Below, one piece after another: positions 4,328 through 55,000 of a stretch of 64,000 nt of DNA. Every line of letters begins with the position of its first letter. The first letter of the stretch is position 1. The notes beneath the pieces are model-generated. The model made no database searches and was not told the origin of the DNA. It saw only the letters and a list, made by a program, of their open reading frames with translations. The DNA comes from Tetradesmus obliquus (Eukaryota > Chlorophyta > Chlorophyceae > Sphaeropleales > Scenedesmaceae): NCBI GenBank assembly GCA_030272155.1, contig CP126203.1, forward strand, positions 372,001-436,000, read 5' to 3'. A program made the position numbers and the translations under genes.

Positions 4328-7300
4328 ACTGCTTCTGCTGCTGTTGGCTGCAGGCCCGCGCTGCCAGCATGACAGCACTGTGCTGCCCAATGGCAAGGTG
4401 CTGCTGATCAACGGCGTTGAGGAAGGCTTCTCAGGCTTAGGCTACTTCCCGGTGAGTTGCACTTATTGTTACATGAACATGTCCTGTTTTGATGGATATT
4501 GCTGTGTCTGCGGAACAGCGGGGTGCAGCAGGGCTATCCTGACCTGGTTATGCTGCAGAGGCAGCTGCTGGCGTGGACAGTCGAAAGTTTGATGCATGAC
4601 GGCCTGCTCCACTGCCAGGCTTGGCACCAGTGCTCTGTCTGTGACCAAACATAACAAGCGTCCTCTGCTGGTGCGGATGCATTGCTGCATGTCCGTCTAC
4701 AACAGAACACCAACAACGTGCCAATCAACGAGCCGTGGATATACGACCCAGCGGCACCTGCTGGCAAGCGCTACCGTAGGACCGGCGCATACACAGACAT
4801 TCCCCGGTTCTACCACGCTGCCGCTGTTATGACGTCGTATGGTGACGTGCTGCTGGGAGGGTCAACCATTGCTGCTGGCTTCACGTCTTACCACATGGCC
4901 GACTTCAACATCACTACATACAAGCACCAAGACTTCAGGTTGGTTTTCGTGGTTCAAAACAGTTGCAGCCGCGCACACCGGGCAGCAACGCGAGCCGCCT
5001 TTGCAAGCGTCAGCAACAATTCGTCCCGGTGCTTTTGATGCAAGCCCATAACGCGATTGTGTTGTTATTGCAGGATTGAATACTTCGTCCCGCACTACAT
5101 CACCGGCCTGCGCCCAACGCTGGAGTTTGTGCCAACTGTCGTCGAATATGGCACCAGCTTCACCGTCACCCTGGCAGCAAACACGAGCGCGACAAGCATT
5201 GCAACCGTGGCACTGGTTGATGCCGGCACCACCACGCACTCCAGCAACATGGCCACTCGCAACCAGAAGCTGGAGTTCAGTGTGTCCGGTGCTCATGAGC
5301 TCACGGTGACTGCCCCCTTTAACACCTTCATGGCGCCACCCAGTGAGTTGCTCGCTTAGTGTCCGTGGAGCAATCTTGCAATTCGTGGGTCACTGGCTGC
5401 TTGTTATGCAGCCAACACCTTCAAGGCGCCACGCAGTGAGTTGCCAGCTGCATTCAATGCTGCAGGCACATGCATGTGCCACCATGCATGAGGCATGCCC
5501 CCAATGGACTTGCAAGCCAGCCTGTTTAGCGTGTTGACTGCTGTTGAGTTGTGCCTCACCGTCAAGCGGCCGCAGCCGATCTTGATGCGTTGTACGGTGT
5601 TGATAATGACAGGTTAACACAAATACTTACGGCGTTGTGATCAGTGGATGTGGCGGGGTTGTATGTAGTGTAGTTGTTTACCCAGCAAATCCAGCGTCAT
5701 GGCTACATCATGATGTCAGCTGTCCTGTCAGAAGTAATGACTGGTCTTGCGTTGCTGCCTGTAGCTTTCTACTGGTGTTCTGCAGTCGGCTGATTTGCTC
5801 GTGACTCAAGTGTGCGCCTGTGCTGTCCTGTTCCCTGCCGCCTTCTGCCTGCTGTTTTGCTGTCGGCTGCTGCACTCCCGTTACCAAAACCCTTGTGCCT
5901 GCCTGTGCTGTTGATCTCTCCTGCAGCCTTCTACCTGCTGTTTGTGGTTGGCCAGGACGAGAAGTACTCCCAGGTGAGGCAGTGGTGCTGCTGGCAGTGC
6001 AGTAATAGTTTCTTTTTATTTTCCTCAGGCCCTGCTGAATGCTGCTGTGCAAACATTAGAGACATCACTTGTGCGAAGATTGCAGTGCATTGACACACTC
6101 CGCGACGACCAGCCAGGTCTCTCTAGCGCTCGCATGCTGCAGGCACAGACTGAACAGGTACAGTATACAATGTGCAATGCACGGCGCTCCAGCTGAATTC
6201 ATGGTTACTATTAAGAGTGTTATTGAATATGGTTTTCTTGTAATCCAGGGCCACTGGTTCAAGCTGAAAGGCCCCTGGAGCACCACCCCGCTGTCCCTGC
6301 CACACAATGCACAGTTTGTCAGTGCGGCATCCACGCAGGCAGAGACAAAGTTCGGTGAGCAGCAGCACATCCTCGCATATGACGAGGCTGTACACATGTG
6401 CCTGACACATGTGTCCTTGCAATGTCAACTATCCATGGCAACATACGTGCTGCTGTCAGGCGGGGCAGCACAGTGATCTAAGCCAAACATTTTCAGCCCA
6501 TCACGGCGCATACCATATTGCACCCTTGAGTGCCTGAATCTCCACTCACCTGAGCTCTTGTACACTATTTTCAATATTTTTATATTATAATTATATGAAA
6601 TATGTATTTTGCCTGCACTGCAGTGCCCTGGTCTGTCAGCGCGCTGGGATCAGAGGCCAGCCTGACAATGCAGGTGCCCCAGGCTCGCGGCTCAGGCCAA
6701 TACGGCATGGCCCTGCAGGCAGTGGACTCCCAGCCCATCCTGCTAACAGGCCCTGCAGTCACTCTGGACGAGGGTGAGTTTGAACACCTACGTTACTCTG
6801 GTGTAAATTGCAGTGCAACATGAAGTGCAGCATGCATGAAACACTTCCGTTGACCGGCCCTGCGCACACCCTGGATGAGGGTGAGCTGAAATACCAACAT
6901 GACATGACAAGTTTGTGTTACGGAGTACAACATCAAGTGTAACGCTTGATGATTTGACAGCCCGAGAAATTGTTTTATGTTATAAGATTTGACAGCAATT
7001 ATGGACCATATTTGCACTTTTGACAGGGCTGAAAATAAGGTATTTTGAACATTTGACACTCCAAGTAACCCTGTTCTGTCAATTTTACGCTGTAAGACCC
7101 TGGCTTCCAACTCTTCAAGCTTGTTTAACAAAATGCAGCTCAACGAGTTACCAGTGATGCAAGCTTGATGCCCAGGTCCTTGGCCCAGCATTGTTTGCTG
7201 GCAGTTGCCATGGTGCTGCAGCAGCAGCTGCTTTGGTGCCTGCTGCTGCCGCTGCTGCAGGCTGCGCACCACTGCACTGCATGTATACTAGCAGGTGTGC

Positions 7301-9030
7301 TGCAGGCAGCTCTGGTGCGCGCAGCTCCTACGCCCTTTGCACTGCCTGCTGTGCTGCCTGCCTCTCAGCAGCAGATGTGTTTACCAACTTGCAGGCAGCA
7401 GAGTGACATTGGGGCAAGGTTGCCTTGATAGCACCATTACTCAACAGTAGTCACAGGTGCATGATGTTATCGGTCAGTGCTGTGCAGCGTTGATCGATCC
7501 TGCCTTGGGCTCTTGGCGGGCCGGTGTGACCTGGACCGGAACGAGCGCCTCACTCGCCCCGCGAGAGATTTTGTGAGCTTTTCGCGACTGTTTGGCACGT
7601 TTGCTTGTAATATAAAATACAAATTGACAGTGGAAAAAGTTAATTTATATTAAGAATTGACAAAGCCGACCTAAAAAATACAATAATGATTTGACAGTCT
7701 GAAAAATATGAGTTTTGTCAATTCATCATGTGTCACTACGGTACAATCGATTGACACCAGCGCCTGCCAGTAGCCCACATGGCAAGCAGGCCAAGCTCCT
7801 GGTATTGCCGCACACCTCCCTCAGAAACTGTTCTCCTTGATCAACTGTACTTTTGCAGGCGCGCGCATGCACTTATTCAGGTAAACAGGCGACGCCGGCC
7901 TCTGACAACTCTGCTGCTGCTGCTGCTGCTGCTGGTGCTGCTCTGCACGCATGTTTCTGCAGGCACCCGCATGCATCTGTTTGTGTGGGCGCGCACGCCA
8001 GCAGCCGTCAGCCAGGTCAACTTGGAGTTCCTGCTGCTGGATTCAGCGGAGGAGCGGGCTGGGTATAGGTTTGATGACTTCAGCATGACCACGGGCGTTG
8101 TCAACCCCAACTACGAGCAATTCCCATTGGTGAGTGTTTTTCAAACTGTGCATTATGCGTGGCATGGATTCTGTATACTGCTGAACACTCAGAACAGAGC
8201 ACAATGCGGCGACAGCCACACAACTGGTGCTTATACGTCACCCCTGTTATCATGCTGGTGCACACCAGGCTGTACAGTGGCTACACCAGCACTTGCTGAC
8301 TCCCATGCTGCTGCTGCTGCCGCCAGGGTGGGCTGGTGGTCAACGCCACCGGCTCGTACCGCCCCGCACTACGCATCACCGGCATGGCCCCTGGGATGGC
8401 GCTGCACCTGGACGACTTTGAGGTGGGGGGGCATAAGCGGCGGGCACGCAGCATTGAGCTGTGGGCAACACACAATTACAACCATAATGCAAGCTGCACA
8501 TGGACCTCTTCGAATGGGCGCAGCGCATACGTCACACCTATTACGCATAAAGAGCACCCATGGGTGCAGGTGGCCGCCTGTCTTTTCACCCGGCCTCCTG
8601 CTCCGTTGCTTAGTTGTTTGGTGTGTGCATGCTGGTCCTGCAGGTGTCCACGATCACGGCTGCTGCATATGCCTCTTCTCTGGCAGCAGCACGAGCCGGC
8701 ACACACACCACAGGGCAGCTCAGCACCCGCCGCCTGCAGTCAGCAGCCGCGGATTCCGCTTCTGCCGCCCCCAAGCTCCGCAAGATTCTGCAGAAGGCAC
8801 CTCCAAGCAGCCCAGCTGCTGAGCAAATCCGTGAGGCAGCACAACACACCGCGCTGAATGCATATTTGGGCAGCATGTACCTGGCTCCGCTGCCTGCTGC
8901 AGATGAGCAGCTGAAGGCTGAGCTGGAGGAGCGTGAGGTTGCAAATGTGACGCTGTTGGATATGGAGATGCCAGGCATCCCGCGTTACACGGAGTGGGCG
9001 CACCAGCATGTGCATGCCATCAACCCCTAA
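711..9030 (+). CDS. Galactose/glyoxal oxidase-like copper radical oxidase with C-terminal carbohydrate-binding-like region (5' partial)
   Basis: Probable secreted copper radical oxidase that turns primary alcohols or aldehydes of sugars into aldehydes or acids plus peroxide. Seventeen exons agree in phase: 711-798, 1207-1319, 1570-1614, 2106-2213, 2516-2605, 2925-3109, 3339-3428, 3621-3813, 4354-4451, 4706-4938, 5074-5342, 5927-5973, 6249-6354, 6624-6773, 7963-8129, 8327-8422, 8644-9030, giving 820 residues in the window and a TAA stop. Family marks: the DASCG cysteine (codon 1316-1318), GRWY tyrosine (2524-2526), RFYH Tyr-His (4811-4816) and TTTHSSN histidine (5237-5239) match the Cys-Tyr cofactor, second Tyr and two His copper ligands. 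The 5074-5973 exons match the DUF1929 early-set domain (LRP..., YLLFVV). The last exons resemble a jelly-roll CBM ending in LHLDDFEV. Exons 1570-1614 and 2106-2213 are the least certain. TGTAA motifs at 9278 and 9285 may be polyadenylation signals. Confidence 0.88.
1180..1206 (+). repeat. (CTG)n tract forming the 3' end of an intron
   Basis: About nine CTG units run directly into the CAG acceptor of the exon starting at 1207. It acts as the pyrimidine-rich tract of the intron. The same design is seen at several other acceptors in the window. Confidence 0.85.
4278..4353 (+). repeat. CTG microsatellite before an acceptor
   Basis: Twelve CTG units (4278-4313) followed by degenerate CTG/TTG/CTA units lead to the acceptor CAG at 4351-4353, just before the exon coding the LPNGKVLLINGV blade of the oxidase. 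Confidence 0.9.
5409..5443 (+). repeat. Duplicated exon end plus donor site (oxidase gene)
   Basis: The last about 25 bases of the exon ending at 5342 and its donor GTGAGTTG recur about 92 bases downstream inside the intron with two or three differences. The duplicate keeps the GT of the donor. Confidence 0.75.
6848..6888 (+). repeat. Duplicated exon end plus donor site (oxidase gene)
   Basis: The end of exon 6624-6773 (GGCCCTGC...GAGGGTGAG) recurs about 100 bases into the following intron, again with the donor GGGTGAG intact. Divergence is higher than in the 5409 copy. Confidence 0.65.
6945..7765. mobile_element. AT-rich intronic insert with iterated TTGACA motifs and short inverted ends (candidate)
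   Basis: Both flanks of this intron segment are AT-rich and carry repeated TTGACAG/TTTGACA motifs (about 6955, 6993, 7022, 7050, 7624, 7655, 7690, and in reverse near 7077 and 7715). Left TGATGATTTGACAG and right (reverse complement) TGATGAATTGACAA form an imperfect terminal inverted repeat. Similar ACGG..TACAA strings lie just outside both ends and could be a target duplication. No coding sequence is recognised inside. Element identity is inference. Confidence 0.35.
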
Positions 9031-10140: not shown

Positions 10141-10160
10141 CGCGGCGTGCACACGCCGCG
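10141..10160. repeat. GC-rich hairpin
   Basis: Arms CGCGGCGTG and CACGCCGCG pair perfectly over 9 bp with a 2-base loop. It lies in intergenic DNA; function unknown. Confidence 0.8.
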
Positions 10161-10420
10161 TGTACATGTAAATCAGCCTAACACGCTACACTGTAACTGA
10201 CGTATACGGTGTACGTACGTCGACGCGTTGCAGCTATTGCTGGGCACCATGCACACTGCACTGATAGCGGCCTGTCTCGAGGAGTTCGATTCAAATGTTT
10301 GCTCCTGATGGCTGCTGCGTTCACGAGCCAGCAAGCTTGCCAGCTCAAACAGGGCTCCTATTACAGTGTAACAGCCGTGTAGCAGCATTTAAAGTATGCT
10401 ATATGCAAACTCTCTGTGAA

Positions 10421-12124: not shown

Positions 12125-14753
12125 TTAGTTGCTCTGGCTCGAGTTGTTGCTGCTGGTGCTGCTGTTGCTGCTGCTGGCCGCAGGAAGCACTGCCACTGTC
12201 ACATTCGTGGGTGACACTGCAGCAGGTGTGCTGGCTGCCGTGGTGTCGACAGTCCCAGTCGGTGCTGTGCCGTTTGCGACCTTGCTGTTGCTGCTGGTGA
12301 CGATGATGTCAGCTCCAGCTGTCTTGACTACATCACTCGTGGGGGGTTCAGCCATGTTGGATGGATAAACCCTGATAAAGTCAATCAGCATTTGACTGTT
12401 GATGGTGGCCACGTTTGGGTCCACCAGCTGGCCTCCCACATTGTATGTTGTCTCCAGGAAGAAGGGCTGGTCAAAGGGCCACTCGGAAACATCAAAGCGG
12501 CTGACAGCAAACGTCTTCTGGCCATCCACAAACCTGAGGACATCAATAGCAGGAGCAACAAGCAGTTGCGTAAGGGTCCAGGCATCATAATTGATGGCGT
12601 CAGCCACAACAAACGTGTCAGAAAAATAGCACTTTGGTTGGACGCATCAGACCATGGGGCAAGAGGGTAGTGCCCCGGCTTCATATGCACCAAGGTGAAT
12701 CCCTCAGTCACGTTTTCTGCAGGTGGCATGCATCTGCCTCATGTGCAATGCAGCAGGCCATTAGGAAGGTCCAGGAATGCCTGATGCATGCTGAACTTCA
12801 TGGCTGGAGCATCCTGTGCGACCACAACTCAATTCATTCACTAGTCGAGCATGCAGGCTGCTGCCTGATGCACATGCAACAGTTGCATCGCCATGCAGCG
12901 CTTGCAAACCAGCTGCCATTCACAAGTTATGCATGCCAAAAGCAGTGGTGCAGCCGAAGGGCAGCGGTGGCTGCTGGAATGAGGCCTTATGGTGCTGCAT
13001 TACTTTGTCATGTGACGCACCAGCTTCCAGTGGCTTGTTGTACCCATGCATGTGCACATATATGTCTAGTGAAATGCCTTTGAAGAATATATTCTACAGC
13101 CGTATATACGGCCCTGCTGATTGACATGAATTGCAAACGCACCCACCAGCGCAAGTAGTCGCAGTTTCATTCCAGCTTGTGCACGCGCCTACATGCCTAA
13201 ACCTAAGCCCCATACCCACCAGCGCATGTAGTCGCAGTTCCACCCCAGCTTCTACACGCGCCTAAACGCCTAAACCCAAGCCCATACCCACCAGCGCAAG
13301 TAGTCGATGTTCCATTCCAGCTTTCACACGCGCCTGAATCTCTAAACCTAAGCCCCTGAACCCCAAACCCACCAGCGCAAGTAGTCGCAGTTCCATTCCA
13401 GCTTGTACACGTGCCAGTCTAGCGATGTGTCAGCCAGCGGCGTCTCACTGACCCTCCATGCGTGCTGCCCATACTCCCTCAGCTGGATGCCATGGGATAC
13501 GCTGGTGCTCATGTCGCGGTGGTCAGCAATGCCGATTTCGCCACTGGCGGGCCACTGCAGCAGTGCAAGCGGCACGGCAACAGTGCTGGGAACAGCAGCA
13601 GCGCAATGACTACAGCAGGAGTGTGGGATAAAATGGCAGTACAATGGATACGGCAGCAGTGTTGCGCAGGTTTGGCACAGGAGAGCATAGGCTTGCCTGA
13701 TTCTGATGCTGATATTACGTACAGGTTGCAGCTGGCATGCACCCAACTCAACAGGGCTCGAACAACTTGTGACTTGTAAGGCACGTTGCCGTTCTTCTGG
13801 ACGCATTGCGGGCCGCTACAATTGTCTCATTGGCTTGCTATTGCGGCTCCTCCTTTGTTCCTTTGTATGTCACCCAACTCAACAATATAACGTTATGACG
13901 CAGCGTCTCACCTTGCCGTACTTGCCGCAGTCATCCTTCCACTCGCAGCGTGGCGCATCAGCCGCCTGGTCCTGCGGCTCCGGAAACAGCCGCAGCCCGC
14001 CACGCGTGCCCAGCACGGCAGGGAACTTGATGCGGGCCTCGATAACGAGCGAGGTGCAGTTGCCTGCAGACATACAGGCACACAGACGGCAGCATGTCGT
14101 CAAGCAGAACACACAGCTGCACCCCGCCACGCGTGCCCAGCACGGCAGCGAACTTGATGCACGCCTGAAGCAATGGGCGAGGGGCATTTGCATGGAAGCA
14201 GACACAGACATGCGGCCAGCGCACGGTGCGCCAGCATTGGGGCAAGTGTCTGGACAGCACACCGCAGAGAAAGCCACACAACGTGATGTGCGCCTTGATC
14301 GCCAGTGAAGTGAAGTTGCTTGAAGACATACATGCATGATGACGGTGGGCGAGTGATGGGTGCCCTGCAGTTGCCTGAAGACATACATGCGTATGGACGG
14401 CGCGTTTTACATCAACAGGAGGGACAGCTGCAGCCCATCACGCGTGCCTGACACGGCAGGGAAGGTGAGAGATGGGAGATGGCAGTCTGGTGATGGTAGC
14501 AGCACACGTTTGGCCAGCGCACATTGTTTCAGCATGAATGCCGATGAGATAGCTGCTTGTACAATGAGAGAAAGTTATTCCAGCACTACACTCTGGTGTA
14601 GCGGGCCACTATGTTGCATTATACTACATTACACCCCATCACACCCCATCACGCTGCAGCGCAACCTACTGGCATCTCCCAGCCTCAATCACGAATAGCT
14701 GCACCCAGACTCCCTCCATATCTTTCTGTGATGTGATGCTGACTCTTTTCAAT

Positions 14754-14794
<41 letters not shown>

Positions 14795-17396
14795 TGCACC
14801 AGCAGCAACACACCTGTTGGTGCGTCTCCTTTGGCCAGCGCTAGGGGTGCCTTGAAGATGCGCTTGCTCTTGGAAGTAAGGCCACCAGATGTCCATGAGG
14901 TTTTGGTGCTGTTGAAAGGTGCCTCGTTGGGCATGCAAGTGATCTCCGTAGGATAGTAAACTGCCTGAAGCCTCAGCACTGTGTTGTTGGGGGCTGCAGA
15001 GTCAGGTATCACTGCCACACTTGTGGCATCAGAAGTGAAGCACTGATTGCAAAAGTAACAACAACAGCAAGAGCAGCAGCGACACAGGCAACAACCATAT
15101 GTGAGCGGATGGGCAGGTAGAAACACGTTGCCATTAACTTGTGTGGTAGAGCACCAACGGCAGGCAGTGAGGGGTGTATTGTTCAGTGCTTCGTGTTGAC
15201 ACTGCCCTGGCTGGAGGCAGCTGGCACCAAGTGTCAGTACATTCTCCGCAAGATAAATAGAGGGGTTACACGGTGTGTTCATGCGGCATGCGCCACGCCA
15301 GGCACCTGGTACAACAGGAAGCTGCACGCCACGCTAGGCCTGTGCCGCCTACAAGTGCCAGCATACACGCATGCGCACAGTGTTACACACGCAGGGCAAC
15401 AGCCGCTGCAGAGAATCTGCCAGCAGAGCTTCCCTGGCTGCCACACGTACACAGGGATTAGGGTTTGCATCAACATGCAGAGCTGGTTCAGCGGCTATGT
15501 ATGCCTGCTTCTCACCAGCCGAGCCCAACGCAGTAGCAGTCCCAGCCCTCGTCCAAGTTCAGGGTATTGCTGTACCCTTATAGCCTTGAACCCTACAACC
15601 CAACCCTGAAACCAAACCCCACCTGCTTCTCGCTGAGCCCAAAGCCGTAAAAGTCCCAGCCCTTGTCCAGTCCGTTGCCCACGCGAGGCGTCCAGCTCAC
15701 ACTGCTGACGCTGCTGAAGCCATCATAGAACACCTGCGAAAAACACCCACACAGCACACGAAACACAACCGGGAGAGGTGCAGCTGTATGAGGGTTGGGG
15801 TGGTTTGGGCAGCGTGAATTTGCACAGATGAAGCAGCGACGGTTTCCTGCAACTCAACAATGAACACGTGGCGCTTGCACTTGGTCAACGTGAGTTTTTG
15901 ATAGGGGCCCGGCACCACATAAGACGGTATGAGCCACAACATGACAACTGTGCACATACACACAAAGCGGTCCACCCTGTTGTGGCTCAGACCATCTAGA
16001 TGGTGCCAGGACCCACATGTAACCAGTCTATCTGTAAAGAGACATACCTCTGTGAGGGGCACCAGTGGAGGCAGTGGCGGCACAGGCTTTGGGGCATTGG
16101 CTTCCTTCCATGCCTTTTCCCTGGGCAGCAGCACCTGGAAGTAGTAGACTGGCCTGCAGCGGATGGCGGCAGCAGCAGCGGCAGCAGCAGCAAGTGAGGT
16201 CCGCGCTCAGAGACACCAGCCAACGTAGCTGTATCCTGCACTTGCTGTGTCTAGCTCACAGCCGCAGTCGTTGCCTGCTGTTGCAGCCACTGGACAGCTG
16301 CTCAGATGTGGCCAATGCCTGTGGGGGGGCGGATGCTGAGTGACAGTGTGCTGTAGTCTGGTTGAGACCCTGGCACTAGTCATCTGGTCATGGCTGAAAC
16401 TGAGAGTAAGACTCAATTTGAAACTGAAAATAAGCCAAAGCAGGCACTGCTCATGCAGCTGCTGCACTGAAGACATGTCTTGAGCAGTGTACACTGCAGA
16501 CGGCGGCAACACCTGCTCGTCGCACAGCTGGCACCTAAAATTACATTGCGTTCCGTTACATACTCCACTCAACCGGGAGTGACGACTCACCCCACCACAG
16601 CTGGCACGACAATGACAACGCACAGCGCCACCCAGATGAGTGTGTTGCGCAGCTTTTTTGTGGGTGGCAGTGGCTCGTCTTTGAAAGGGTTTGCTCCTGC
16701 TGGGATCTCCGCAGCTGCTGCAGCAAATATGGCTCCCGTGTCTGCACCACCTGCAGCAGCATGAAGCATGATAATATGCACGTGAGCTGCAGCAGCCAGG
16801 TCCACGGGCTGTGCCGATGACCCTATGGCTCACAGTCTCTTGCAGACATGTGACTAGCTGCCATCAAGTCTCCGCTGCGACCTTTGTCAAAACAATATCA
16901 AACCACCAATGATAGCATGCTGGTGTGTTCACACTGCAAGGTTCAACTAGTGCCTGACTGTGAAGGTCGTGTGCCGCCCAGCAAACAGTTCATGACAGGC
17001 TGCCAACGTCATCGGCCAGAGAGTCGCAACCTTGGTGTGCAAGGCAGCTACGAAGCAAGCTGCTGCATCATGCAAATGCACAGACATGCGCCTGCAGTCT
17101 GCGGCATGCAGCACTCAACACACGACCGCCCAGCCAATGTAGCAGCAGGCTGCTGGGCTGCTGGGCTGCTGGGCTGCTGCTGGAGCCAATGGCTGCTATT
17201 GGCTGCTGGCTGCTGCTGGGGGGCCTTGCAGGGCTGGCTGTATCTCACCATCCCTGGAGCCAATGTGTAGCGTGATGTCGGGACCTTCCTCCTTGCTGGT
17301 GTTGCGAGTCCTGCCAGGGAACCAGGACCAGTTTTCCTCGCTCACTTCAGACACCTGGCCCAGGCTCTGGCTGCTGGCGGAAGGCTTCATAGGCAT
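12125..17396 (-). CDS. Type II membrane GH16-family protein with degenerate catalytic motif
   Basis: Single-pass protein of 498 residues with a C-terminal GH16 (beta-glucanase/transglycosylase fold) domain facing the lumen or outside. Eight exons, all in phase: 17396-17249, 16750-16591, 16153-16048, 15733-15623, 15042-14814, 14063-13912, 13554-13373, 12533-12125; start ATG 17396, stop TAA. Residues 1-85 are cytosolic, 86-102 (TLIWVALCVV...) a membrane anchor after KKLR. GH16 marks: FYDGFSSV, SLVIEARIKFP, DYLRWFVDG, WPFDQPFFLETTYNVGG and FIRVYPS. The catalytic site reads WPASGEIGIAD (E308, G310, D313) instead of the usual ExDxxE, so the central Asp is Gly and the acid/base Glu is Asp. A Ser/Thr/Asn-rich tail (about 424-498) has several N-glycosylation sequons. 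It may be inactive, a lectin-like binder or a regulator; the first exon is the least certain. Confidence 0.87.
13142..13416 (-). repeat. Four tandem copies of an exon 3' end with donor site
   Basis: The 3' end of the GH16 exon 13554-13373 and its donor (GTGGGT on the minus strand) recur three more times in the next intron at about 13142-13188, 13214-13263 and 13287-13334, spaced 72-77 bases. Spacers contain degenerate CCTAAACC-type telomere-like strings. Each copy keeps the GCTG|GTGGGT junction, so four competing donors exist. Confidence 0.88.
14119..14470 (-). repeat. Degenerate duplicates of the GH16 exon 14063-13912
   Basis: Fragments resembling the exon that codes EARIKFPAVLGTRGG lie in the intron upstream of it (in gene sense): about 14119-14167, 14283-14335, 14366-14392 and 14429-14470. 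Shared strings include CACGCGTGCC.AGCACGGCAG and CAGTTGCCTG(A)AGACATACA. Several carry the exon's acceptor side. Confidence 0.7.
14757..14797 (-). repeat. (CAG/CTG)n microsatellite in GH16 intron
   Basis: About 13 CAG units on the plus strand (CTG in gene sense), starting about 20 bases after the donor at 14813. Here the tract sits near the donor, unlike the acceptor-linked tracts elsewhere. Confidence 0.9.
15904..16014. repeat. Foldback form of the dispersed repeat
   Basis: Two inverted arms (15904-15940 and 15979-16014, GTTGTGGCTCA.ACC.TCT...GGTGCC.GG.CCC) flank a spacer of about 38 bases within a GH16 intron. This suggests that the single-arm copies elsewhere in the window are parts of a MITE-like foldback element. 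Confidence 0.7.
16553..16590 (-). repeat. Short relic of the retroelement-like tail repeat
   Basis: On the minus strand ACTCCCGGTTGAGTGGAG followed by TATGTAACGG resembles the ends of the repeats at 22191-22300 and 47700-47775. It overlaps the donor of GH16 exon 2. Confidence 0.45.
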
Positions 17397-26249: not shown

Positions 26250-26281
<32 letters not shown>

Positions 26282-32810: not shown

Positions 32811-33439
32811 GCTGCAGGTCCCCATGACTGCTGGGCGCTGGTCTGCATTCTGGGTGATGCCGCATCCAGGGCGCGGCCCTGGCTGTTACCACACCTTCTG
32901 CTGTACCTGCTGTTTCAAAACCTTTGTTGCTCCTTGCTGTACTGCAGGTGCCGATGTCTGCTGGGCGCTGGTCTGCATTCTGGATGATGCCGCAGCCGCA
33001 GCCAGGGCGGTTCCCGGGCTGCCAGGCTTGGGTGCCTGGCGAGGGTGAGTGTGGAGCTTTTGGCGGCTGGCCGCGCTCTGGGGAAATCGACATAATGGAG
33101 CATGTGAACGCTGATCTTAAGGTGCTCGGTACGCTGCACTGGGGGACGCAGAGCGGGCAGCAAGCGAGTGAAGGCGGCAACAAGGCCTTGTCAGCCGAGG
33201 AGCTGAAGGGATGGAATGTGTACCAGCTGCGGTGGAGCTGCGATGCGATTGAGTGGTACGTGAACGGGCAGCGCATGCATTTTGTGCAGCGGGCGTGGGT
33301 GCAGCCGCAGTGGCCGTTTGATGAGCCGTTCTTTTTAATATTCAATACGGCGGTGGGCGGGGCGCTCACAGGGTATGCAGATGCAGATGTGAGGACAGCA
33401 GAGATGCTGGTTGACTACGTCAGGGTGTATGCTTCATAG
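31299..33439 (+). CDS. Type II membrane GH16 beta-glucanase/transglycosylase with intact active site
   Basis: Predicted glycoside hydrolase family 16 enzyme of 409 residues acting on beta-glucan-type chains at a membrane or wall. Three exons in phase: 31299-31718, 32061-32378, 32948-33439 (TAG). Residues 1-44 are cytosolic, about 45-68 (AAVIAVLTLLL...) an anchor. Family marks: VFEDTFQTFNTSTW, VQ-CYTNSADN at the first splice, SSVLVEARMK, AGRWSAFWMMP, then WPRSGEIDIMEHV with E292 nucleophile, D294 and E297 acid/base, followed by WYVNGQRM, WPFDEPFFLIFNTAVGG and VDYVRVYAS. Exon junctions after VQ and within the EARMK region match or lie close to those of the GH16 gene at 12125-17396, so the two are paralogues. 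The first intron uses a GC donor (CAG|GCAAGT). It sits inside the loop of the GT2 inverted duplication. TGTAA at 33677 may end the transcript. MAEW at 31329 is an alternative start. Confidence 0.92.
32778..32818 (+). repeat. (CTG)n tract at a duplicated acceptor
   Basis: CTG units end in GCTGCAG at 32818, the acceptor of the duplicated exon start described at 32819-32885. Confidence 0.85.
32819..32885 (+). repeat. Duplicated start of the GH16 catalytic exon
   Basis: This segment codes PMTAGRWSAFWVMP, nearly the same as PMSAGRWSAFWMMP at 32951-32992, and is preceded by its own acceptor. Splicing here would run out of frame with the EIDIME motif, so it is a decoy or relic of the true exon start at 32948. 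Confidence 0.9.
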
Positions 33440-43580: not shown

Positions 43581-43653
<73 letters not shown>

Positions 43654-46593
43654 AGGTGCCGGAGGCCTGCATGTACGACACTGTGGGTGAATTCCTGCAG
43701 TGCCCAGAGGTGGCCTACACGCAGCACTACACAACACCCTTCATCGAGCAGAACAGGAACTACTGGTGGGTACCAAGCATTGCCGGTATGTAAACATTAT
43801 GGTACATACCGCGGTCGGCCAGTGCACCCTGAAAGTTCAGACATGTTGAAATTCATAATAGACTGCATGAAACCCTGTACGGGTTTTTGTGGGGGGAACG
43901 TAGCGGTGCGTGTAGCATTCTAGCAGCTGTCAACAACCCAACAAATTCATGTTTATGGTGTCCACACTCTTGATTTCTGGGCTTCAACCAAGTGCTCATC
44001 ACGTTGTGGCCCATACCTTCACAGATGGTGCTAGGACCTACATGCCCTTCTTCTCTCAGACAACTCCATGGGGTGGTTTCACTGGGTGGGCTTGCTGGAT
44101 GTTGCTGCAGGGAGCAGCTTGTGTCAACCAAGCATCAGGCATACCTCAAGCACCGATCGGTGTCTGCAGGAAAACACTAATTTATGGGGAATTGCGGTGT
44201 GGTGTGTGCTGCCGCCTTGCAGGGAGGAATATGTGTCAGCTTTCACGAAAACCATCTACTTCCAAGGCATCGCAGTGTCAGTTGCCTTCGGTGACAACTC
44301 ACCGCTTGTGGGACACAACGCCTTCCTGCGCTGGTCGGCACTGCGTGCGGTAGGTTACCACTGGGCCAAAGCGCAAAGGTTTGGATGCATGTGCCCTGTT
44401 GATGCTTGACACGTCTGCCACCTTCACACAGCAATGTGCAGCAGTCGAGATGCATCTGCCATCATGCCATATGGCAGCATAACCCTGTGTTGAGTTCTAC
44501 GGGTAATCTGCAGGCACCTGTGTCATGATCATGAGGGTGGTCACAGCTCTGCCAGGCTTTCACTCTGCATGAAAGCATCAATCACTGCCAGTGCAACTTC
44601 CACAGCAGAATGATCAGTTCACGAGCTGCTAAGATATGCTGCGCCTGACGCCTTTGTGGCCCGGTATGCTTTAACTGTTTGCCCCAGATCGCCTTTACGG
44701 ACGAGACATGCCGCACCGGCGAAGTGAAGGTGTGGGGCGAGGACAGCGTCAGCGAGGATTTCGATTTGTACATCCGCCTCGCCACTGTGGGCAGTCTAGG
44801 GCGCTACGTGATGTACACAGGCGATGAATTCCAAGAGGGCGTCTCTCTGACCTACATGGACGAAGTCATCAAGTTCAAAAAGGTAACAAACAAACAACAG
44901 CTCACCGTCTTACAAAATGTAGGTATTACAACGTCATGCTTGAGGTAGCTGGGGATGGGCTACACCTCAGTGCATGTGGCCTAGTACAGGTCACATGCAT
45001 GTGTAACACCCCGGCTCTGGTCATATGACACATGATCCGAAATGTGATGGCATCACATTTTCATGAGTTTGCAGTGCAGAAATTATTGCCGCTATTCTAA
45101 ACTAGAGGAGGGGGGGAGGATGTGTGAGAGTCAGGTAGGGGTGAGACTAGTAGTTAACGTTAACGTTAAGTACTAAAACGTTTTAGTATGTACATCATGG
45201 TGATAGTATCAATACAAAAATCACTGAATAATCTTTGTGCTTCGTCAACAATTTCATGAGAAGCATATTGTTTACGAATTCTTTTGGCTGGTACTTGCCA
45301 CAGTGTTCAAACAGCATGACACCTCAGTTGCTTCCTGCTTGCAGTTTGCGTACGGCGCATGTGAGCTGCTGTTCAACCCCATCAAGCAGTGGCCCACCAA
45401 AGGGCCCTTTGACAGCAAGTTCCTGGCCTACATGCGCAACAAGAACATCCGCTGGTACCAGAAGACCAGTCTGCTGGCATACCTGTCATCCTACCTGGTG
45501 AGTCAGCAGGCATTAACGTTTCAGCGTTGCTTTGCTTTGCAATGTGAGCCTGCCATTGGCGGCCCAGCAGATAAGTTTGCCTGTGTGTCACCTCCGTGGC
45601 GCGAGTCCTCCTGTGCAATGCTGAACTATGCGGAGGCAAAAATGCCAGGTGAAAAGCTGTGTCAGTATACCTTGACACTCCAAGTATATGGTATTTGACC
45701 TACGTTGCTCAACCAATTGTTGCCTACCTCACAGGGCAACGGCACAGCAGACTGTAGGGTTGCTGTGTGATGGTCAGATTGGCACTTGAAACGCATGTTG
45801 TTGACTGCCGACAAATTGGACGCATGCATTTTCCTTGGGCACTTCCGGTGCAGATGCATGGTGCGGGCTGCTGCTTGCTTACAATGTTACAGCAGCCTGC
45901 TTGTGTCCAGTGCTGCCATGTGGCTGTTTGTTCATAGTCTACCACAGCCTGCCACACTGGCTGCATGCGTGTTGCTCAGGCCTTGAGTTGGCACAACAAC
46001 GTGCTTTCTTTTGTTTGCTAGGTTGCTTTCCGGCACGTCTAACACCCGCGCTGCTCGCAGCAAACGGTCAATCTTAGGTTGACCACGTGACATTGATTGC
46101 CAATGCTACTGCAGGCCATGGCGGCTGCGTTCTATGCGTGCATGCTTGAAGGCGTTCTGTCAGTCGTGGACCCTGGATGGCACGACTACTTCATGATGCG
46201 TGGCTTTGACGTCATGCTCACCTGCACCGTCGTCTTCATTGGCATCGGCACATTCTGCAATGCCATCTTCTACCAGTGGCGGCGCCTGGGCGCTGAGAAG
46301 CAGCCCAACATGTTCAAGATCACTTGGGACAACCTCAAGTGGTGAGTGTGACGACTGGAATGTCTCATAATAACAAAGTATTACCTGATATAACGAGTGA
46401 TGAGTGTGGGTGTGCACATGAGTATTGGTGTACCAGCTGCAGCTGCAAGAGCCACACAACATGTTGCGCAGCCTGCTTGCTCATCAACTGCGACAGTGCT
46501 GCTAATGCAGCTGCAATCCTGCAGCTCACGCCACTTCACGCCGTGCTTTATCTGAGTATTCATTCAGTCGCCAAGAGCCTGACAGGGGCTGTG

Positions 46594-46625
<32 letters not shown>

Positions 46626-46633
46626 GCTGCCGC

Positions 46634-46688
<55 letters not shown>

Positions 46689-47036
46689 CCTGCTCTGCTC
46701 GCCTCTTGCAGGATCCCTGCAAGCGTGCTGTTCTTCAACAGTGTGCTGTTCCACATGACGGAGGTGTGCTTCATCTACTTCTTTGGCATGAAGGTCTCCT
46801 GGGGTGCAACAGCCAAGGAGGTGCAGAACAAGTCATGGTGGCAGGCGCTGAAGGAGACGATCATTGCCTACAAGTGGGAGTACCTGCTGTACTTTGTGAT
46901 GCTTGGAGGCTACTCGGTGTGCGTGTGGTACTACGAGATTGGGCTGTACAGGGGCTGGTCAGTTTTGGGGTACTGCATAGGGCACATCTTAGGCCCCATT
47001 GTGCTCAACCCTACCATCATGTCACTCAACTGGTGA
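41609..47036 (+). CDS. Processive family-2 glycosyltransferase C (fungal Cps1/hyaluronan-synthase-like)
   Basis: Third member of the family, 725 residues. Exons in phase: 41609-42131, 42537-42760, 43170-43463, 43656-43765, 44223-44349, 44688-44882, 45345-45497, 46115-46341, 46712-47036 (TGA). Motifs: QMPVYKE, VCDDG (245-247), GTFKKASNLNYQ, LLIDADTK (343-345), VGHNAFLRW, SEDFD (E449-D450), KNIRWYQK. Membrane helices flank the core as in A. It is the most diverged copy: TSPLIKN for TSPLVQN, GPFDSKF for GPINKKF, SWW for TSW. Exon 3, however, holds a tract of about 210 bases almost identical to A and B, pointing to gene conversion. Its introns differ in length and sequence, including a long CTG tract before exon 4. 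Expected at the plasma membrane or Golgi, making an extracellular glycan. Confidence 0.9.
42178..42200 (-). repeat. Fragment of the dispersed repeat
   Basis: On the minus strand CAGGACCCACATGTAACTAT matches 26627-26646 exactly. It is a short piece in intron 1 of GT2 gene C. Confidence 0.7.
43584..43655 (+). repeat. (CTG)23 microsatellite forming an acceptor
   Basis: About 23 uninterrupted CTG units end in CAG, the acceptor of GT2 C exon 4 (start 43656). It is the longest pure CTG tract in the window. Confidence 0.95.
44003..44060 (+). repeat. Dispersed repeat copy in GT2 C intron
   Basis: GTTGTGGCCCATACC..TCACAGATGGTGCTAGGACC followed by TACATG and a TTCTCTC tail; more diverged than the 26602 copy. 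Confidence 0.7.
45155..45188. repeat. Adjacent palindromes in GT2 C intron 6
   Basis: TTAACGTTAACGTTAA is directly followed by the 18-base perfect palindrome TACTAAAACGTTTTAGTA (45171-45188). Confidence 0.85.
46599..46686 (+). repeat. Compound (CCG)n(CTG)n microsatellite before an acceptor
   Basis: About nine CCG-type units pass through mixed units into about 15 CTG units, shortly upstream of the acceptor at 46711 of GT2 C exon 9. Confidence 0.92.
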
Positions 47037-47699
47037 GTCAAGCATGCATATGCGCTGCCCAGCTACTGTGTGATGCTCCGGGCGGTGCCGGAAGCTGCTG
47101 TGTTGTCACAAGGCCAACTGCAGCCAGGCTTGACATATCGCTTGCAGCGCCAGTCCGCCCATCACGGCTGCGCCACAGCAGGGGCTAGACCAGCCCTGAT
47201 TAGCTGCCGGCAACAGCTGGTGCTGCAGCAAGTGTGTAGCGATTGCGGCGCCAGCGCGCCCCTCACAGCAGGGGCTAGGTCAGTTCCGATCAGCTGGTGG
47301 TGCCAGCAAGTTGATCTTGGATAGGTGCCCGCCACCATAATGTTTAGGAATGGTGAATGTGTGTGCAGTCAACAAGGAAAACCAGGATCACCTGTCGTTG
47401 GGAAGCTGCAACCCGACGGTGTCCGCCTTGCAAGATTGGTGAATGCATGTGCATATAACGCAGGCAGTGGTGTGTGAGATGATGCATTGCCGTGCCTGCT
47501 ACAATTAAACAGCACACATTGCAAGGGCATGCATCCTCAGTATCAAACATAAGTGACTGCATGATGTGTTGGATCCTGAGTGTCACGTCAATGCTGCTGT
47601 TGCAAGCAGGTGTGGCAGCGTGTAGTGCTGTAGCTTCCTCTTGTTTGTGGCTTCTTCTGGCTTGTTGGACGATGATGGGTTGTTCTTCGATGTTTCCTC

Positions 47700-47775
47700 C
47701 CCCTGTGAGCCTCTTGTTGGCTCCTGATTGGGGATCCCACTCCTCGTTTAAGTGGAGCATGTAAGGTAATGTAGC
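47700..47775 (+). repeat. Retroelement-like 3' end, second copy
   Basis: GTTGGCTCCTGATTGGGG..CCCACTCCTCGTTTAAGTGG leads into AGCATGTAAGGTAATG, matching the reverse complement of 22191-22300 with a shorter tail. An open frame of 47492-47764 ends in this segment but no retrotransposon domain was recognised. Confidence 0.55.
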
Positions 47776-48515
47776 TTGATGTTTCAGTGGCAGGGCTGCA
47801 CATGGCCCTACAGAGTGAGTGTACACATGTGTCAGCAGCTACCCAGGCTGCTCTGTAGCAGGAGAGGGTGTGTGTGGCCAGGGGCGCCAACACACCTGGT
47901 AAGCACGTTTCGTGCTGCAGGAATCATGAGGACTGACAGGTGTTAGTTTGACTAGGCTGTTTTCATCAGCGTTCAAGGGTTTCCTACCTGGGTCGCACAA
48001 GGTCATGAGTATCAGCTTGCCACATAGCAGTCACGCAATGACTGCATGGCTTCACTGTAAATGGCAGCTGTCTGTGGAGACTGCAGCTGTTGTATGCTGT
48101 GGTTGCATGTAATCAGAGGAAGAGACAGATATGTTGCATATTAGGTGTGTGTACATCTGCCAGCGCATGTTGCTGGGAGCCCCTGCGGTCTGGGCGAGAG
48201 TAAGCATTGCATCTGACCTTCACGTTGTGTTTCACTTAGTTATACTGTGAACCTAGATAGAGTCGGCTGCTGCTTGGCAGCTTATCATGCAGGTTTTAGT
48301 GCACTGCACAGTTTACACAGCTCAAGTACACTTTAGAAGCAGAAGTACATGTGGTATGACCGTGGTGATGTTGAGATGCAGTGTAGTCAGTTACGCTTGT
48401 GGTGTTACGTACACACCAGTTGTATGTGTGTACAAAACTCTGGAACCAGTGACATAGGCAGCTTGTCATGTTAGCAAGCCACTGGTTATTGATGAGGCCT
48501 GGTGCCGACAATTGC

Positions 48516-48652: not shown

Positions 48653-49168
48653 GGCTAGTTGTGGTGAGTGCTTCTTGCTATATTGTGGTTGCAGTGGCAC
48701 GTCACAAGCAAGCTTCAAGCAAGGTTGCAACAATTGTAGCATCCATGGTTAACGTTGCTTGACAGTGTGCACACTGCACCGTGCATGCACCGTTCTTGAT
48801 GCAATTGCATCACACTTGCAAGTGTAAAGAAACAATTCTGCACGCAGTCAACATGGCACTACTCTGCACTGCTGCCACCTTCACTGCTCTCCTGCACAAT
48901 AGCTGTGGTTGCTCATACAATTGGCATATATGTAATGCGTTCAGTCCAAATCAAGCAAATTCAGCCGTGCGGCCAGCATCAGCAGCACGTTGTGTGCATG
49001 GAGCACTTGGCGCTGCTTTTCAAGCCGTCAGCCTCGGCAGCATGGACAGAGCTGCCAGCTTCTTGCCGACCTTAACCCTGATCCAGTATAACCCAGGCTG
49101 AAGTGTTCCTAAAACTTGCAACGTCCATAGAGAAGGCAGCGTCGAAGCTGTGTCACTGCTGCATCTTT

Positions 49169-49930
49169 AGCGCAACAGCGACACGGAATTTTGTGACACT
49201 TAGCATGCAGCAGGCCGAGATTCCTGCAGATTATATATTCTAATGTTTCTCAGTTCATTCAGGTTGGAGTAGAAGCACCTCAAGAGGCCTTGCCACGGCT
49301 ACTTGGTGTACACCACATGTGGCGCCGGCAGTTGCACCGCTTTTCGTGACGCTTGGCATGCCGCAGGCCAAGATTTTATTGGGCATTTTCCGGCGCTCTC
49401 CTCTCCCTTATAGCTGCTCGGCCCAAATACATCTGTTTAAAATCGTGCCAAGAATCTGTGGCGCTGCTGCATTTTTGGCGCCGGCAGTTGCACCGCTTTT
49501 CGTGACGCTTGGCATGCCGCAGGCCGAGATTCATTGGGCATTTTCCGGCGCTCTCTCCTCTCCAATATAGCTGCCCGGCCCAAATATATCTGTTAAAATC
49601 GTGCCAAGAGTCTGTGGCGCTGCTGCATCTTTGGTGCTGGAAGCTACACGGATTTTTGTGACGCTTGGCATGCCGCAGGCCGAGCTTCAATAAGCGTCTG
49701 GTGGAACTCAAGCCATATTCACGTATTTTTTAGTCGCGCTTCAATGCTTTGGCAGCATTCTCCGAAGCTGTGTGCCTGCTGCAACCCTGGCGCTGGAAGC
49801 TGCACCGCTTTTCGTGACAGTGGACATGCCGCAGGCTGAGCTTTTAGGAACACTTCCTGGGCCTCTGTCCTCTTCTATATGTTTTCTGAAAACCTATATT
49901 TGACCAGCCGCCCGGCCAGCATCAGCGGCG
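49169..49930. repeat. 156-bp tandem (satellite-like) repeat, about five units
   Basis: The anchor GGCGC(C)GGCAG/GGCGCTGGAAG..GCACCGCTTTT starts at 49321, 49477, 49633 and 49789, an exact 156-base period, with an older unit near 49169. The first two full units are nearly the same; later ones are diverged. Flanking DNA (48850-49100 and 49930-50260) contains another shared repeat around GCCACC.TCACTGC..TCCTGCACA. Confidence 0.9.
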
Positions 49931-50919: not shown

Positions 50920-51329
50920 TTTCCGCGATCCTATGTGCACTGCTCACCTACTGCGAGTATATGAGACATGGCGTCTTTTGTGCTGTGCTTGGAAAAGGAA
51001 TGATACAGGCACCACTCACACACCACTGCTGCACTTAGAAGCTCCGCAATGCTTGCCAATGATAAGTGGGAAAGGCAATTGCTCATAGGTGTTACAGAAT
51101 TTGGGCAATAAGACGTTTCCAACGCAATTACAAGAGTCCTGGAAATGTTTGTACGTACTACCCGGTCAGAACCTGTGCTGCAGGGTGCTGCAGGCCTGCT
51201 GCCAGCCTTGGCATGGCAGCAATGACTGCCAGGGACCCTGCTCAGAAGTTCCTGCCAACCCAACTCCAACAGCAGCGTTGCACAATGCCCAGTATGAGAT
51301 CCTGTACTACGCTGTGGATAACCTCTATG

Positions 51330-51465
51330 CTGTCAGGATATCCAGATGATTATCCAGTGCAATTACAGGATAAACACATAATGCCGGATATCCGCCATCC
51401 CATGAGGGATATTCAGTTTATCCTTGAAATATTCACCAGATATTCGAATATCCTGTGGGATAAAC
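51330..51465. repeat. GGATA-rich foldback
   Basis: GGATATCC occurs twice, GGATAAACACA twice, and GTTTATCC pairs with GGATAAAC about 45 bases away. Looks like a small degenerate foldback element. Confidence 0.5.
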
Positions 51466-52059
51466 ACAGCCTGGCGTCGGTAGGGGTCGTCACCTACAGA
51501 CGACAGGCCCATTGCCTCAGCCTTTAACCTAGTAAGCTGTCCATTGCTTCCGGAACTGGTTGAATGATGCTGATAAACGCAGCCGTTGCAGCAAACCATT
51601 GAATGACACCGTCACAGGCAGTTACGAGCCAAGGGCACTCCACGACAGAACCTCATGCATGTGTGCATACGCCTTGTCACAATCAGGCGGGGGTCTTCTG
51701 GCTCAGCATTGCTTGAAGGTGCGCAGCTGTGCATGACCAGCGTGCTTCGGCATCCTGGCTTTGTCTAGAATTGGTCATTTTATAATCAACAGCAGCAGCT
51801 GCTGCAGCAGCTGCTGCCACGCCTGCCCACTGAAGGCGGCTGAAGGACTGCTGGCAAAAAGTGGTGGGCAGACATGCTGCCACAGGTACCTAGGCGTTAT
51901 AACAAGGAGCATGCTCTGCCGCTGGCCGCCAGCGGCAGCGCACCTTTTCCCCAGGGCATCATGCAGCTACGCTGATGATTCCTGTATTCGCATCATTGCG
52001 GCAATTTACGAAGGATGCTTGCCGCATATCCTAGGCAGGCTGCATAGCACACGGCTAGC

Positions 52060-55000
52060 TCAGCTGCCCAGCTTGGTTGAGGCCCGCGCAATGTAGCGCA
52101 GCAGTGTGCCGTCACTGCCTGAAGTCAGCTGCAGCTGCTGCAGCACCTCGCGCACCCCGAGGTCCAGCAGCTGCTCCCTGCAGGAACAAAAATGCGTAAC
52201 AATACAACAGGATCATGTAAGTAAAGAGGGTACGTGGGACTGGCGCAGCACCTGCAAGCATAAGCAGCTGCGGGCGATACACAGGGAGCAGCACCTTGCG
52301 CACCCAGCGGTCCAGCAGCCGCTAGAGGCACATTGTAAACAAATATCAAGGGCAGCACAGGCAGGGCGGTTTGGTTGCCGCGGCTCACACACATTCCAGG
52401 TCATACGGGGTCTGAGCCTGCCCCTACCACCACGTTTGTCCATAAATCAGCACATACACCACAAGCAGCCAACTCACACCAGCTGGCAGCTTGCACCCAC
52501 CTGCATTCCTTGTGCGCACACATGTTGCCGATGGAGAACAGCGCAATCTTGACCGGCGAGTTGCCCTCACCGCCCGTGCCGTGCCGCCTGCCGTCTGCAG
52601 TACTGTCTGGGCCCAGCACCGTCTCAAGCAGTGCTTGCAATGCGCCAGTCTGCAGAAGCAGCAGCAGCACAGTGGTGGTGTCAGCAGGTCAGCGCCGCCA
52701 GCAGCTGGTCAATAGCACACCGCCGCCTGCTGCTGCACATCAACTTTCTTCATCCTGTAGGCTGCTTCTGCTATGCTGCAAACATTCCCCTGCCACCGCT
52801 GTCTGCTGCTCTACCTGCCGTTGCCAGCCAGCAAGCACGCCACCTCAAAACTCACCGCAACGCTCCCGGCGCAGAGGTGCCCGCTGTTGCGCACAAGGTT
52901 GCCCAACACACGTGCTGTTGTTCCACCTCCTCTCCCCTTCAACCAGTCTCTAAACTGTCAGACTCACCGCGATGATCTCGCCGCAGAGGTGCCCGCTGTT
53001 GCGCACGAGGTTGCCCAGCGCCCCTGCTGCATTGGCACGCGTCTTTTCTTCGTCATCGCGCAGCAGCGCCACCAGTGGGCCCACCGCAGGCGCCAGCGCC
53101 TCGTAGAGGCTGGCATTGTGGAAGGCGGCATTGCCAATTGCAAAGCACGCAAACTTCCTGCAGGCCGGCAGGCGTGATATGTCACCATGAGCAGGCATGG
53201 TTCAAATCTAGTAAGTTCTGCAGGTGATGTGCCAAGGAATCGGCAGAAACATGCTGGGTATATTATTCGCTGCAAGGTTGGAACCCAACACCGACTGCGT
53301 GCCAGGCGCAGCGCGTGACTGGCATGCTGTACGCGAGGCTGAGGGGCTGCAGAGCCACCGCAACGCAGCTGCCACAGCCTGGCCACACCCCACCTTGCGC
53401 CCTTGTCTGAGGCGCTGCAGAGTTTGATATGGGGCGGCACGATGCTGTCTGCGCACCGCACTGCCCTCCATGCAACAACACGAGCACAGCACCGATGTAA
53501 CTACAAGCTAGCAGACTCTCATGAACCCACCTTGCGCCCTTGTCTGAGTCGCTGCAGAGCTCGATGAGGGGCGGCAGGATGCCGTGCCGATCCAGTGCAG
53601 GGTAGAAGTAGCCGCTGTGGCGGCACATGTTGCCCAGCAGGTTGGCCACGCGCGCACGCACGCCTGCAGCAGCGGACAGCAATTCAAGTTGTTCAAGCCT
53701 GCGCAGATGCATTTCGTACGAAATGGCATGACATATCCTGTGCAAGCGCCTCAGCAGCGGCCGCCCCACCAAAATAAGCAGCAGCAACCCCCTAGCGCGT
53801 GACAACCCCAAACCCCACCTGAGTCATGGTGGCTCAGCAGCCGCCGCAGCACTGGCAGCAGGTTGCTCTTCGCAAGCGCCTCATACGTCGCTGCGAGCCC
53901 GCCCTGGCCCCCGCCCGCCTGCTCGCGTGGCGAGGCGCGCGCGAGCTGGCTGCAGATGAGCAGCACATCCACTAGCAGTGGCGTGGGGTTCGAATCGCGC
54001 AGCAGTCGCTGCACCAGCGCAGGGGACAGGCCGCCAGCCTGGCAGGTTGCAGAGAAGGCAGCGAGCGGCAGAGATACACAGCGATTGTAGGTTGATCACC
54101 AAGATACAACAGTGTATGCAAAGGCAGTAGATGCAGGGGACAGGCCGCCAGTCTGGCAGGAGGTGACGTGTGGGAATGGCGGGCGGCAGCAGATATAGAG
54201 CCGTGTGGGGTGAGCACCAAGGGAGCAAGCGCACGCGCATGTCAAGGTGATGCATGTCACGTTTATGTTGACTGCAGCAAGCTGTAATGGCAACTGCGCA
54301 ACTGCAGAGCATTGCAAGAGCCAGGCTGCAATGCTGCTGGCTGCAGTACACTACATCTCAAGCAGCACCCCATCCACTGCACGCCCTAAACTGCTGCCAA
54401 ACCCACTGGTCCGCCATCCAGCACCCACTGTAGTGCAAGCACCAAACCACAGCACCACCCACCTGGATGTACTGCGCTGAGAAGGCTTGCTGCGCTGTGA
54501 GCACCAGCCGGTTGACCAGGTTCATGGGCAGCAGCAGCTGGCGCGGCTCCAGGCCCTCGCAGACAGCCAGCAGCAGCGCCATCGCGCCCTCCTGCAGCAG
54601 GGCATCCAGGTAGGGCCGCGGCAGCTCCACGCCTGCAATGCACGCGGCACGACAACAGCAATTGATAGGTGCTGACTAGGCGCTGGCTACATCCAGTTTC
54701 AAGTTGCGCATTAGGTGGCCAGGTAGTCGGTGCAGCTAGAAGACAGCCCAGCTCCAGCCTGCTGCTGCAGTGCTGTGGCCTACCTACAGCTTGCAGGCAC
54801 AACAAAAGACCCAAGCCAGCATGGAAACCAGCAGCTGGCTAGCAACAGACCGCTGGCAAGCTGCGCAGGGAATATCTCTTACATCCTCCAAGCCTCACCT
54901 GGTGGTGTGTTGAGTGGGACTCCCAGCAGCTCTGACACCGCGCCAACCAGCCGTGCGACGCCCTCCCGCCCGCCGCCGGACTGGCTGGGCCAGGCCTGCA

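Follow-up and report, generated by a model that had tools for sequence, protein, structure and literature searches.

The stretch analysed here (the window) is a 64 kb piece of the intron-rich Tetradesmus obliquus genome (C13:372001-436000; the genome has 104,662,953 bases in 17 contigs), in which short pieces of exon ends, usually with their splice site, recur inside the neighbouring introns. Genes were predicted ab initio with a small purpose-written hidden Markov model trained on the window and on fetched sequence, and five of the predicted window proteins were submitted to Pfam. Four of the five gave matches above the curated cut-off (a galactose-oxidase-like early set domain, GH16 twice and a protein kinase), and the fifth, below it, is a protein that we take to be GT2-like. 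Duplications were located by self-alignment with a purpose-written aligner and set against the gene models, in the window and in 200 kb of C1 and 50 kb of C5, which together make 314 kb or 0.3% of the genome. A sequence-only reading of the window had listed nine copied exon edges in four unrelated genes. Self-alignment finds all nine, and seven of them do join an exon edge, its splice site and an intron copy, but the copy at 52288 ends 2 bp short of the junction and the one at 54133 involves intron sequence only. The count of four genes holds, whereas 'unrelated' is too strong since two of the four products share the GH16 domain. The pattern of exon-edge duplication is real and unusual, and it extends beyond the window, which confirms the earlier observation.

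Across the 314 kb, 71 of the 386 predicted internal exons (18%) have a copy of some of their own sequence in the intron directly beside them, against 0, 1 and 0 in the controls. The share differs by region (51 of 252 exons on C1, 12 of 54 on C5 and 8 of 80 in the window, which is thus below average), and a wider search that looks past short predicted neighbours gives 107 exons with copies, 21 of them on both sides. Counting was confined to genes with at least 300 coding bases, and the per-exon, copy-position, per-locus and unit-geometry counts to internal exons of at least 40 bp. The copies are direct and close together as expected of tandem duplication, with 329 direct alignments in 167 loci as opposed to 6 inverted pairs within 900 bp, and their identity is graded from about 70 to 100%. 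A comparison of exon edges with exon interiors, as proposed in the sequence-only reading, leaves its observation standing: in the window and C1, with introns of other genes as control and heavily masked windows set aside, a match to the own intron at p ≤ 0.0025 is found for 33 of 431 windows at donors and 36 of 414 at acceptors, where about 1 would be expected in either set, compared with 14 of 1003 exon-interior windows (2.5 expected). It may be added that a lenient alignment scoring was dropped as it produced long matches near 58% identity, and that a lower limit of about 85 bp on unit size, seen in a BLAST self-comparison, proved to be an artefact because BLAST drops matches near the self diagonal.

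The copies hold a regular position with respect to the junction. For 49 of 60 exons the best upstream copy begins no more than 6 bp from the start of the exon, and for 57 of 68 the best downstream copy finishes no more than 6 bp from its end. Taken in the nearest register, 72 partial copies anchored at a junction have a copy distance of 122±18 bp, of which the exon part has a median of 50 bp (5-95% range 26-76) and the rest, which we read as the intron part, a median of 68 bp (44-109). The distances of all 163 anchored copies cluster at 100-160 bp and again at 200-260 bp, with no clear third peak.

Also the duplications are unevenly placed. When the annotation is rotated to obtain expected numbers, loci with an offset of 90-160 bp are in excess at edges (27 against 14.5 expected), in the mixed exon class (34 against 17.3) and in the exon-only to non-coding class (16 against 10.1), and fall short inside introns (9 against 27.0), in intergenic sequence (2 against 9.1) and wholly within exons (4 against 14.7). 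Loci with offsets of up to 90 bp have no edge preference (3 against 3.2), and above 160 bp the mixed class alone is raised (15 against 8.4; edges 6 against 6.1). On counting each cluster once at offsets of 85-300 bp, 98 loci have exon sequence in at least one copy while 12 are intronic and 5 intergenic, a ratio of 98 : 17 which leaves out 11 loci of the class EE_all (4 of them at least 92% identical). Among loci of at least 92% identity the numbers are 28, 1 and 0. Random placement would give about 0.27 exon-touching to 0.34 intronic to 0.11 intergenic of all positions, and the shortage of intron-internal duplications of equal size is the strangest part of the data. The suggestion that direct duplication is concentrated at splice junctions is thus borne out, with a preferred unit and position, across genes and on three contigs; the preference is shown statistically, for a small sample and with junctions as placed by ab initio gene models.

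The intron side of the copies points to a duplicated unit that took in intron sequence, now decayed, because homology there falls with age, spacers resemble flanks and the flanks look like intron ends. Counted per edge, intron homology is kept in 28 of 48 copies of at least 92% identity, 5 of 23 at 86-92% and 6 of 31 below 86%; 20 of these 28 young copies belong to multi-copy sets. With 28 of the 48 young copies keeping such homology in this recount, the idea that copies were bounded exactly at the splice site at birth was dropped, as was an earlier table with one representative per cluster (2 of 20 exon-touching loci of at least 92% identity being full), which had undercounted young full-unit arrays. 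Of 42 donor pairs, 31 lose the homology after 1-13 bp of intron sequence, as do 25 of 33 acceptor pairs after 1-16 bp (the tabulation leaves aside 20 alignments that include no junction), and an exon part alone is what is seen even in some pairs of at least 95% identity. Spacers and flanks show a weak collinear similarity above the null (mean z 1.18 over 52 pairs, after leaving out pairs with an intronic extension above 40 bp or d > 165). Even where the flanks do not align they score like genuine intron ends: acceptor-side copies keep acceptor-like sequence upstream (mean 0.97, n=27, p=1e-5; real acceptors score 1.22 and random intron sequence -0.99), and donor-side copies are followed by sequence resembling an intron start (n=36, p=0.001 against mid-intron).

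As to their fate, the copies do not appear to be held as coding sequence, and stops, frameshifts and unit lengths spread over the three frames (22, 25 and 25) argue against coding use. Among 44 pairs in which the gene model does not make the second copy an exon, there are 79 synonymous and 126 non-synonymous changes and 5 stops in 663 codons, and 15 of the 17 indels in 40 partial copies not called exon are not multiples of three. A coding role of the copies is therefore unsupported. Mismatches by codon position in the exon parts of the same 44 pairs (59, 64 and 114) do not decide the matter, as working paralogues give similar series (64, 46, 130 and 10, 14, 24), and the single stop in 937 codons of pairs with both copies called exon carries little weight as the gene finder avoids stops. 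The splice dinucleotides agree between the copies in most pairs (0.97 and 0.94 at GT, 0.85 and 0.93 at AG), yet this proves nothing because the pairs were selected for alignments that cross the junction and the rate for unrelated sites is almost as high (0.97, 0.89, 0.82 and 0.85). The proposal that the copies are of benefit as spare splice sites accordingly finds no backing here: the dinucleotide match is uninformative, and the copies carry frameshifting indels and stop codons. GC donors are frequent in the predicted introns of all samples, with 17 GC to 243 GT where the exons on both sides measure at least 60 bp, a figure that ab initio models may inflate.

The first gene of the window has a paralogue at C13:354916-361937, which serves to calibrate divergence. 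Its exons differ by 1.8, 2.6 and 4.4% at codon positions 1-3, and the introns that align by 6.1%, with 23 indels in 2207 bp; at least one intron aligns far worse and lies outside these figures. The GT2-like pair of the window differs by 0.4, 0.9 and 2.4% at the three codon positions and by 4.3% in introns. Two duplications of the first gene (5321/5414 and 6746/6853) are common to the paralogue with the spacer included, at an offset of about 20 kb; they are therefore probably older than the gene pair and unlikely to be assembly errors. The paralogue has in addition an acceptor-side copy and an array of about 60 bp after a donor, both absent from the window gene.

The explanation to which we give about an even chance is that the copied edges are remnants of small tandem duplications straddling exon-intron junctions. 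A unit of about 120 bp, made of some 50 bp of exon and 70 bp of intron, would be duplicated across the junction, and as each unit brings its own splice site, one intact junction would stay beside the exon. The second copy would land inside the intron and be spliced out with it. Since an intact junction is kept and splicing would remove the extra copy, the event may be nearly harmless. The intron part would then decay fast, so that what stays visible as a copied edge is a piece of exon together with the splice site, and repeated events would build arrays; for copies whose intron flanks no longer align, we infer the tandem origin. Junctions would have to be favoured as starting points of duplication, and staggered breaks that are filled in, or backward template switching, are examples of how this could come about. 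A further step, which we put forward tentatively and think somewhat doubtful, is that splice junctions are hot spots of small tandem duplication through a process tied to transcription or splicing that copies such units again and again, so that introns grow longer by leftover exon sequence; a pair of nicks, one about 50 bp into the exon and the other about 70 bp into the intron, with fill-in and rejoining afterwards, would be one example.

Several results weigh against small tandem duplication across junctions as the source. At the level of single windows the intron interiors match almost as often as the edges (117 of 1803 with 4.5 expected, or 6.5% as against 7.7 and 8.7%), which speaks against edge specificity there, the excess at edges appearing when counting is by locus and a long repeat is counted once. 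As many as 20 of the 48 copies of at least 92% identity are without clear intron homology, more than simple decay predicts, and just 16 of the 52 spacer tests are singly significant (p<0.05). The exon share of the unit speaks for junction preference, being narrower and lower than in random one-junction units (median 0.40 against 0.54, Kolmogorov-Smirnov p=4e-7, n=50), but the exon part is measured from alignments that may stop early, so that this test of junction-centring may overstate. In no outgroup was a junction seen clearly before and after a copy, and the one difference between the paralogues may equally be gain or loss. And the gene models, as said, are ab initio.

Random tandem duplication everywhere in the sequence, with edges standing out since events inside exons are purged and the exon half decays more slowly, is in our view unlikely, but it is the foremost of the rivals. 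It fits the depletion of exon interiors, the near-equal match rate of intron interiors per window, the absence of edge preference at offsets of up to 90 bp and the little there is above 160 bp, and the extra copy of the paralogue, which reads by eye as a plain tandem with a decayed intron part; moreover, some 21-27% of random units of 85-165 bp would straddle one junction (with at least 20 exon bases) or span a whole exon. What it does not account for is the ratio of exon-touching to intronic plus intergenic loci, expected at about 0.27 : 0.45 and observed at 98 : 17, and at 28 : 1 among copies of at least 92% identity, where decay should matter little; the narrow exon share is also contrary to it. 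In a simulation with calibrated rates, uniform births and no gene conversion, intron-internal pairs come out about as numerous as edge pairs (ratio 0.8) and nearly all pairs of at least 92% identity are full-length. Only the edge-to-intron ratio of this simulation is relied upon, as its target table, with one representative per cluster, was later revised.

The same simulation bears on the idea, which we consider quite improbable, that the duplications across junctions are old and that gene conversion between the exon and its intron copy has kept their exon parts similar. Adding conversion in five settings leaves the ratio at 0.8-0.9, that is, with no shortage of intron-internal pairs, so random births with slower exon decay do not reproduce the edge preference in the simulation with or without conversion. 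In favour of conversion there are pairs with about 5% exon divergence and strongly diverged intron flanks, and the paralogue, whose two copies are identical and whose exon, as read by eye, has three bases otherwise found in the intron copy, a difference that is open to other explanations.

Exchange or repair between diverged homologous chromosomes, with exons as the sole matching islands and hence joins at exon edges next to a different version of the intron end, would explain why both flanks look like genuine intron ends even when they do not align, and one paralogue intron does align poorly though the exons differ by about 5%. We nevertheless find it very unlikely, as the majority of the youngest copies (the 28 of 48 given above) have intron homology and a second copy of the flanks is absent from the genome at the three loci tested. 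An assembly artefact in which two haplotype versions of one junction are written in succession is the most improbable of all, for although the unit size is near a short read length and some pairs combine high exon identity with different intron flanks, the identity is graded, the copies hold frameshifts and stops, and the two shared duplications recur with their spacer in the paralogue.

Two further candidates were set aside. A repeated element inserted with a long target-site duplication was rejected, the spacers being single-copy at the three loci searched, and there is no need to suppose that one exon copy was split when another inserted into it, as the pieces on the left and right are just short compared with the exon. 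Within the 314 kb, 9 of 53 spacers match elsewhere, and the two with most matches (88 and 34) contain CTG repeats. Such repeats are found at many intron ends, 118 of 561 introns in the window, C1 and C5 having CTGCTGCTG in their last 60 bp.

The duplications of the window are collected in Table 1. They differ in type: the 72-bp array at 13141-13415 and the tandem pair at 6746-6939 stand apart from the others, which have little beyond the exon part. In the pair 6746-6827 / 6853-6939 the intron part is still recognisable; it is below the threshold of the self-aligner and plain in the comparison with the paralogue. An edge copy absent from the earlier list lies at about 5901 / 5816, besides the one marked in the table. 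Three copies are called small exons by the gene model (5412-5435, 32818-32853 and 53394-53414), which we read provisionally as copies.

Table 1. Exon-edge and related duplications in the window (positions are those of the window)
Feature	Position	Strand	Details
Exon end with donor, source edge	5321..5351	+	exon 5074-5342, galactose/glyoxal-oxidase-like gene; self-alignment, gene model, Pfam
Intron copy of the 5321-5351 edge	5414..5444	+	offset 93, 94%; also in paralogue C13:354916-361937
Tandem duplication across donor of exon 6624-6773	6746..6827 / 6853..6939	+	offset 107, 68%; common to paralogue
72-bp tandem array over donor of exon 13373-13554, GH16-domain gene	13141..13415	-	three extra intron copies
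Acceptor-side source edge of exon 13912-14063	13986..14066	-	self-alignment
Intron copy of the 13986-14066 edge	14113..14194	-	offset 127, 83%; weaker copies 14366-14401, 14424-14477
Donor-side source edge of exon 15623-15733	15622..15669	-	copy at 15504-15555, 81%; not in earlier list
Acceptor source edge of exon 32948-33439 (GH16 domain)	32942..32997	+	self-alignment, Pfam
Intron copy of the 32942-32997 acceptor edge	32812..32867	+	offset 130, 91% over 56 bp
Exon start beside acceptor, source; exon 52060-52177, kinase gene	52140..52175	-	self-alignment
Intron copy of 52140-52175	52288..52323	-	offset 148, 89%; 36 bp exon, ends 2 bp from acceptor junction
Intron copy, donor edge of exon 52968-53157	52850..52917	-	offset 112, 85%; longer pair 52803-53029 at 71%
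Intron copy, donor edge of exon 53531-53663	53389..53448	-	offset 137, 88%
Intron-internal duplication	54019..54103 / 54133..54221	-	offset 114, 76%; begins about 10 bp from exon; no exon edge in gene model

In its intron part the 72-bp unit looks similar to telomere repeats of the plant type; TTTAGGG motifs show no enrichment in introns overall in the window, C1 and C5 samples. Where the copy 6853-6939 ends, a stretch of about 800 bp begins (6939-7743) that is similar to places on C1, C8, C6, C2, C12 and more, and is likely a dispersed repeat. Elsewhere in the window, 24719-28466 and 40493-36613 form an inverted duplicate of 94-95% identity including introns, whose genes we presume to be GT2-like, and a third GT2-like gene (41609-47946) matches this pair in exon-sized pieces only. 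An intergenic tandem array with a 156-bp unit is present at 49144-49880. Outside the window, L003:9320-9420 (copies to C1:1019859) is a young array that lies across a donor, its units of about 118 bp being 97-99% identical; its exon is presumably that of a Clp protease. At L016:9132-9175 a 44-base stretch recurs without mismatch on several contigs, with six matches on C8 spaced 10,568 bases apart (one step being 22,036), which suggests a long tandem repeat.

How introns grow and where new splice sites come from is an old question, and with 18% of sampled internal exons having own pieces in the next intron the process could be watched. If junctions are indeed hot spots of duplication, DNA breakage or copying errors would be linked to gene structure; if the excess reflects retention rather than birth, the copies would still offer duplicated splice sites in a natural series that spans a range of ages.

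A literature search over titles and abstract openings, with most subscription papers outside its scope, brought up no report of genome-wide, junction-centred duplications. Tandem exon duplication likewise repeats exon sequence with splice sites in the neighbouring intron; here the exons are mostly partial, with one splice site and with stops and frameshifts. Upstream copies reach the exon end in 15 of 60 cases and downstream copies the exon start in 14 of 68, a minority that may be true exon duplications. Introners would recur elsewhere in the genome, whereas, in a search that passes over simple repeats, none of the three duplication loci examined has a match beyond its local array, and minisatellite arrays would have no junction preference, whereas the loci with offsets of 90-160 bp prefer edges. 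Among repair processes, fill-in by CST/Pol alpha-primase at breaks with 3′ overhangs is described as producing small tandem duplications (PMC8355091) and would likewise give direct adjacent copies between staggered ends with no lasting sequence family; the abstract names no splice-junction focus. In Daphnia, according to a review of intron-gain mechanisms, gained introns have short direct repeats attributed to staggered break repair (PMC3443670). Direct repeats near intron ends are common to both cases, but those of Daphnia are short and flank gained introns, while here exon pieces of about 20-100 bp lie within existing introns. Also close is the AGGT model with the potato RdRp gene, a single case of a small tandem genomic duplication involving splice sites and crossing an intron-exon boundary, with an intron gained (PMC4974935). 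In that model a new intron takes both its donor and its acceptor from the exon segment that was duplicated; the anchored copies described here adjoin an existing junction and, as far as the gene models place them, lie inside an existing intron, in 18% of sampled internal exons and with a preferred unit and position.

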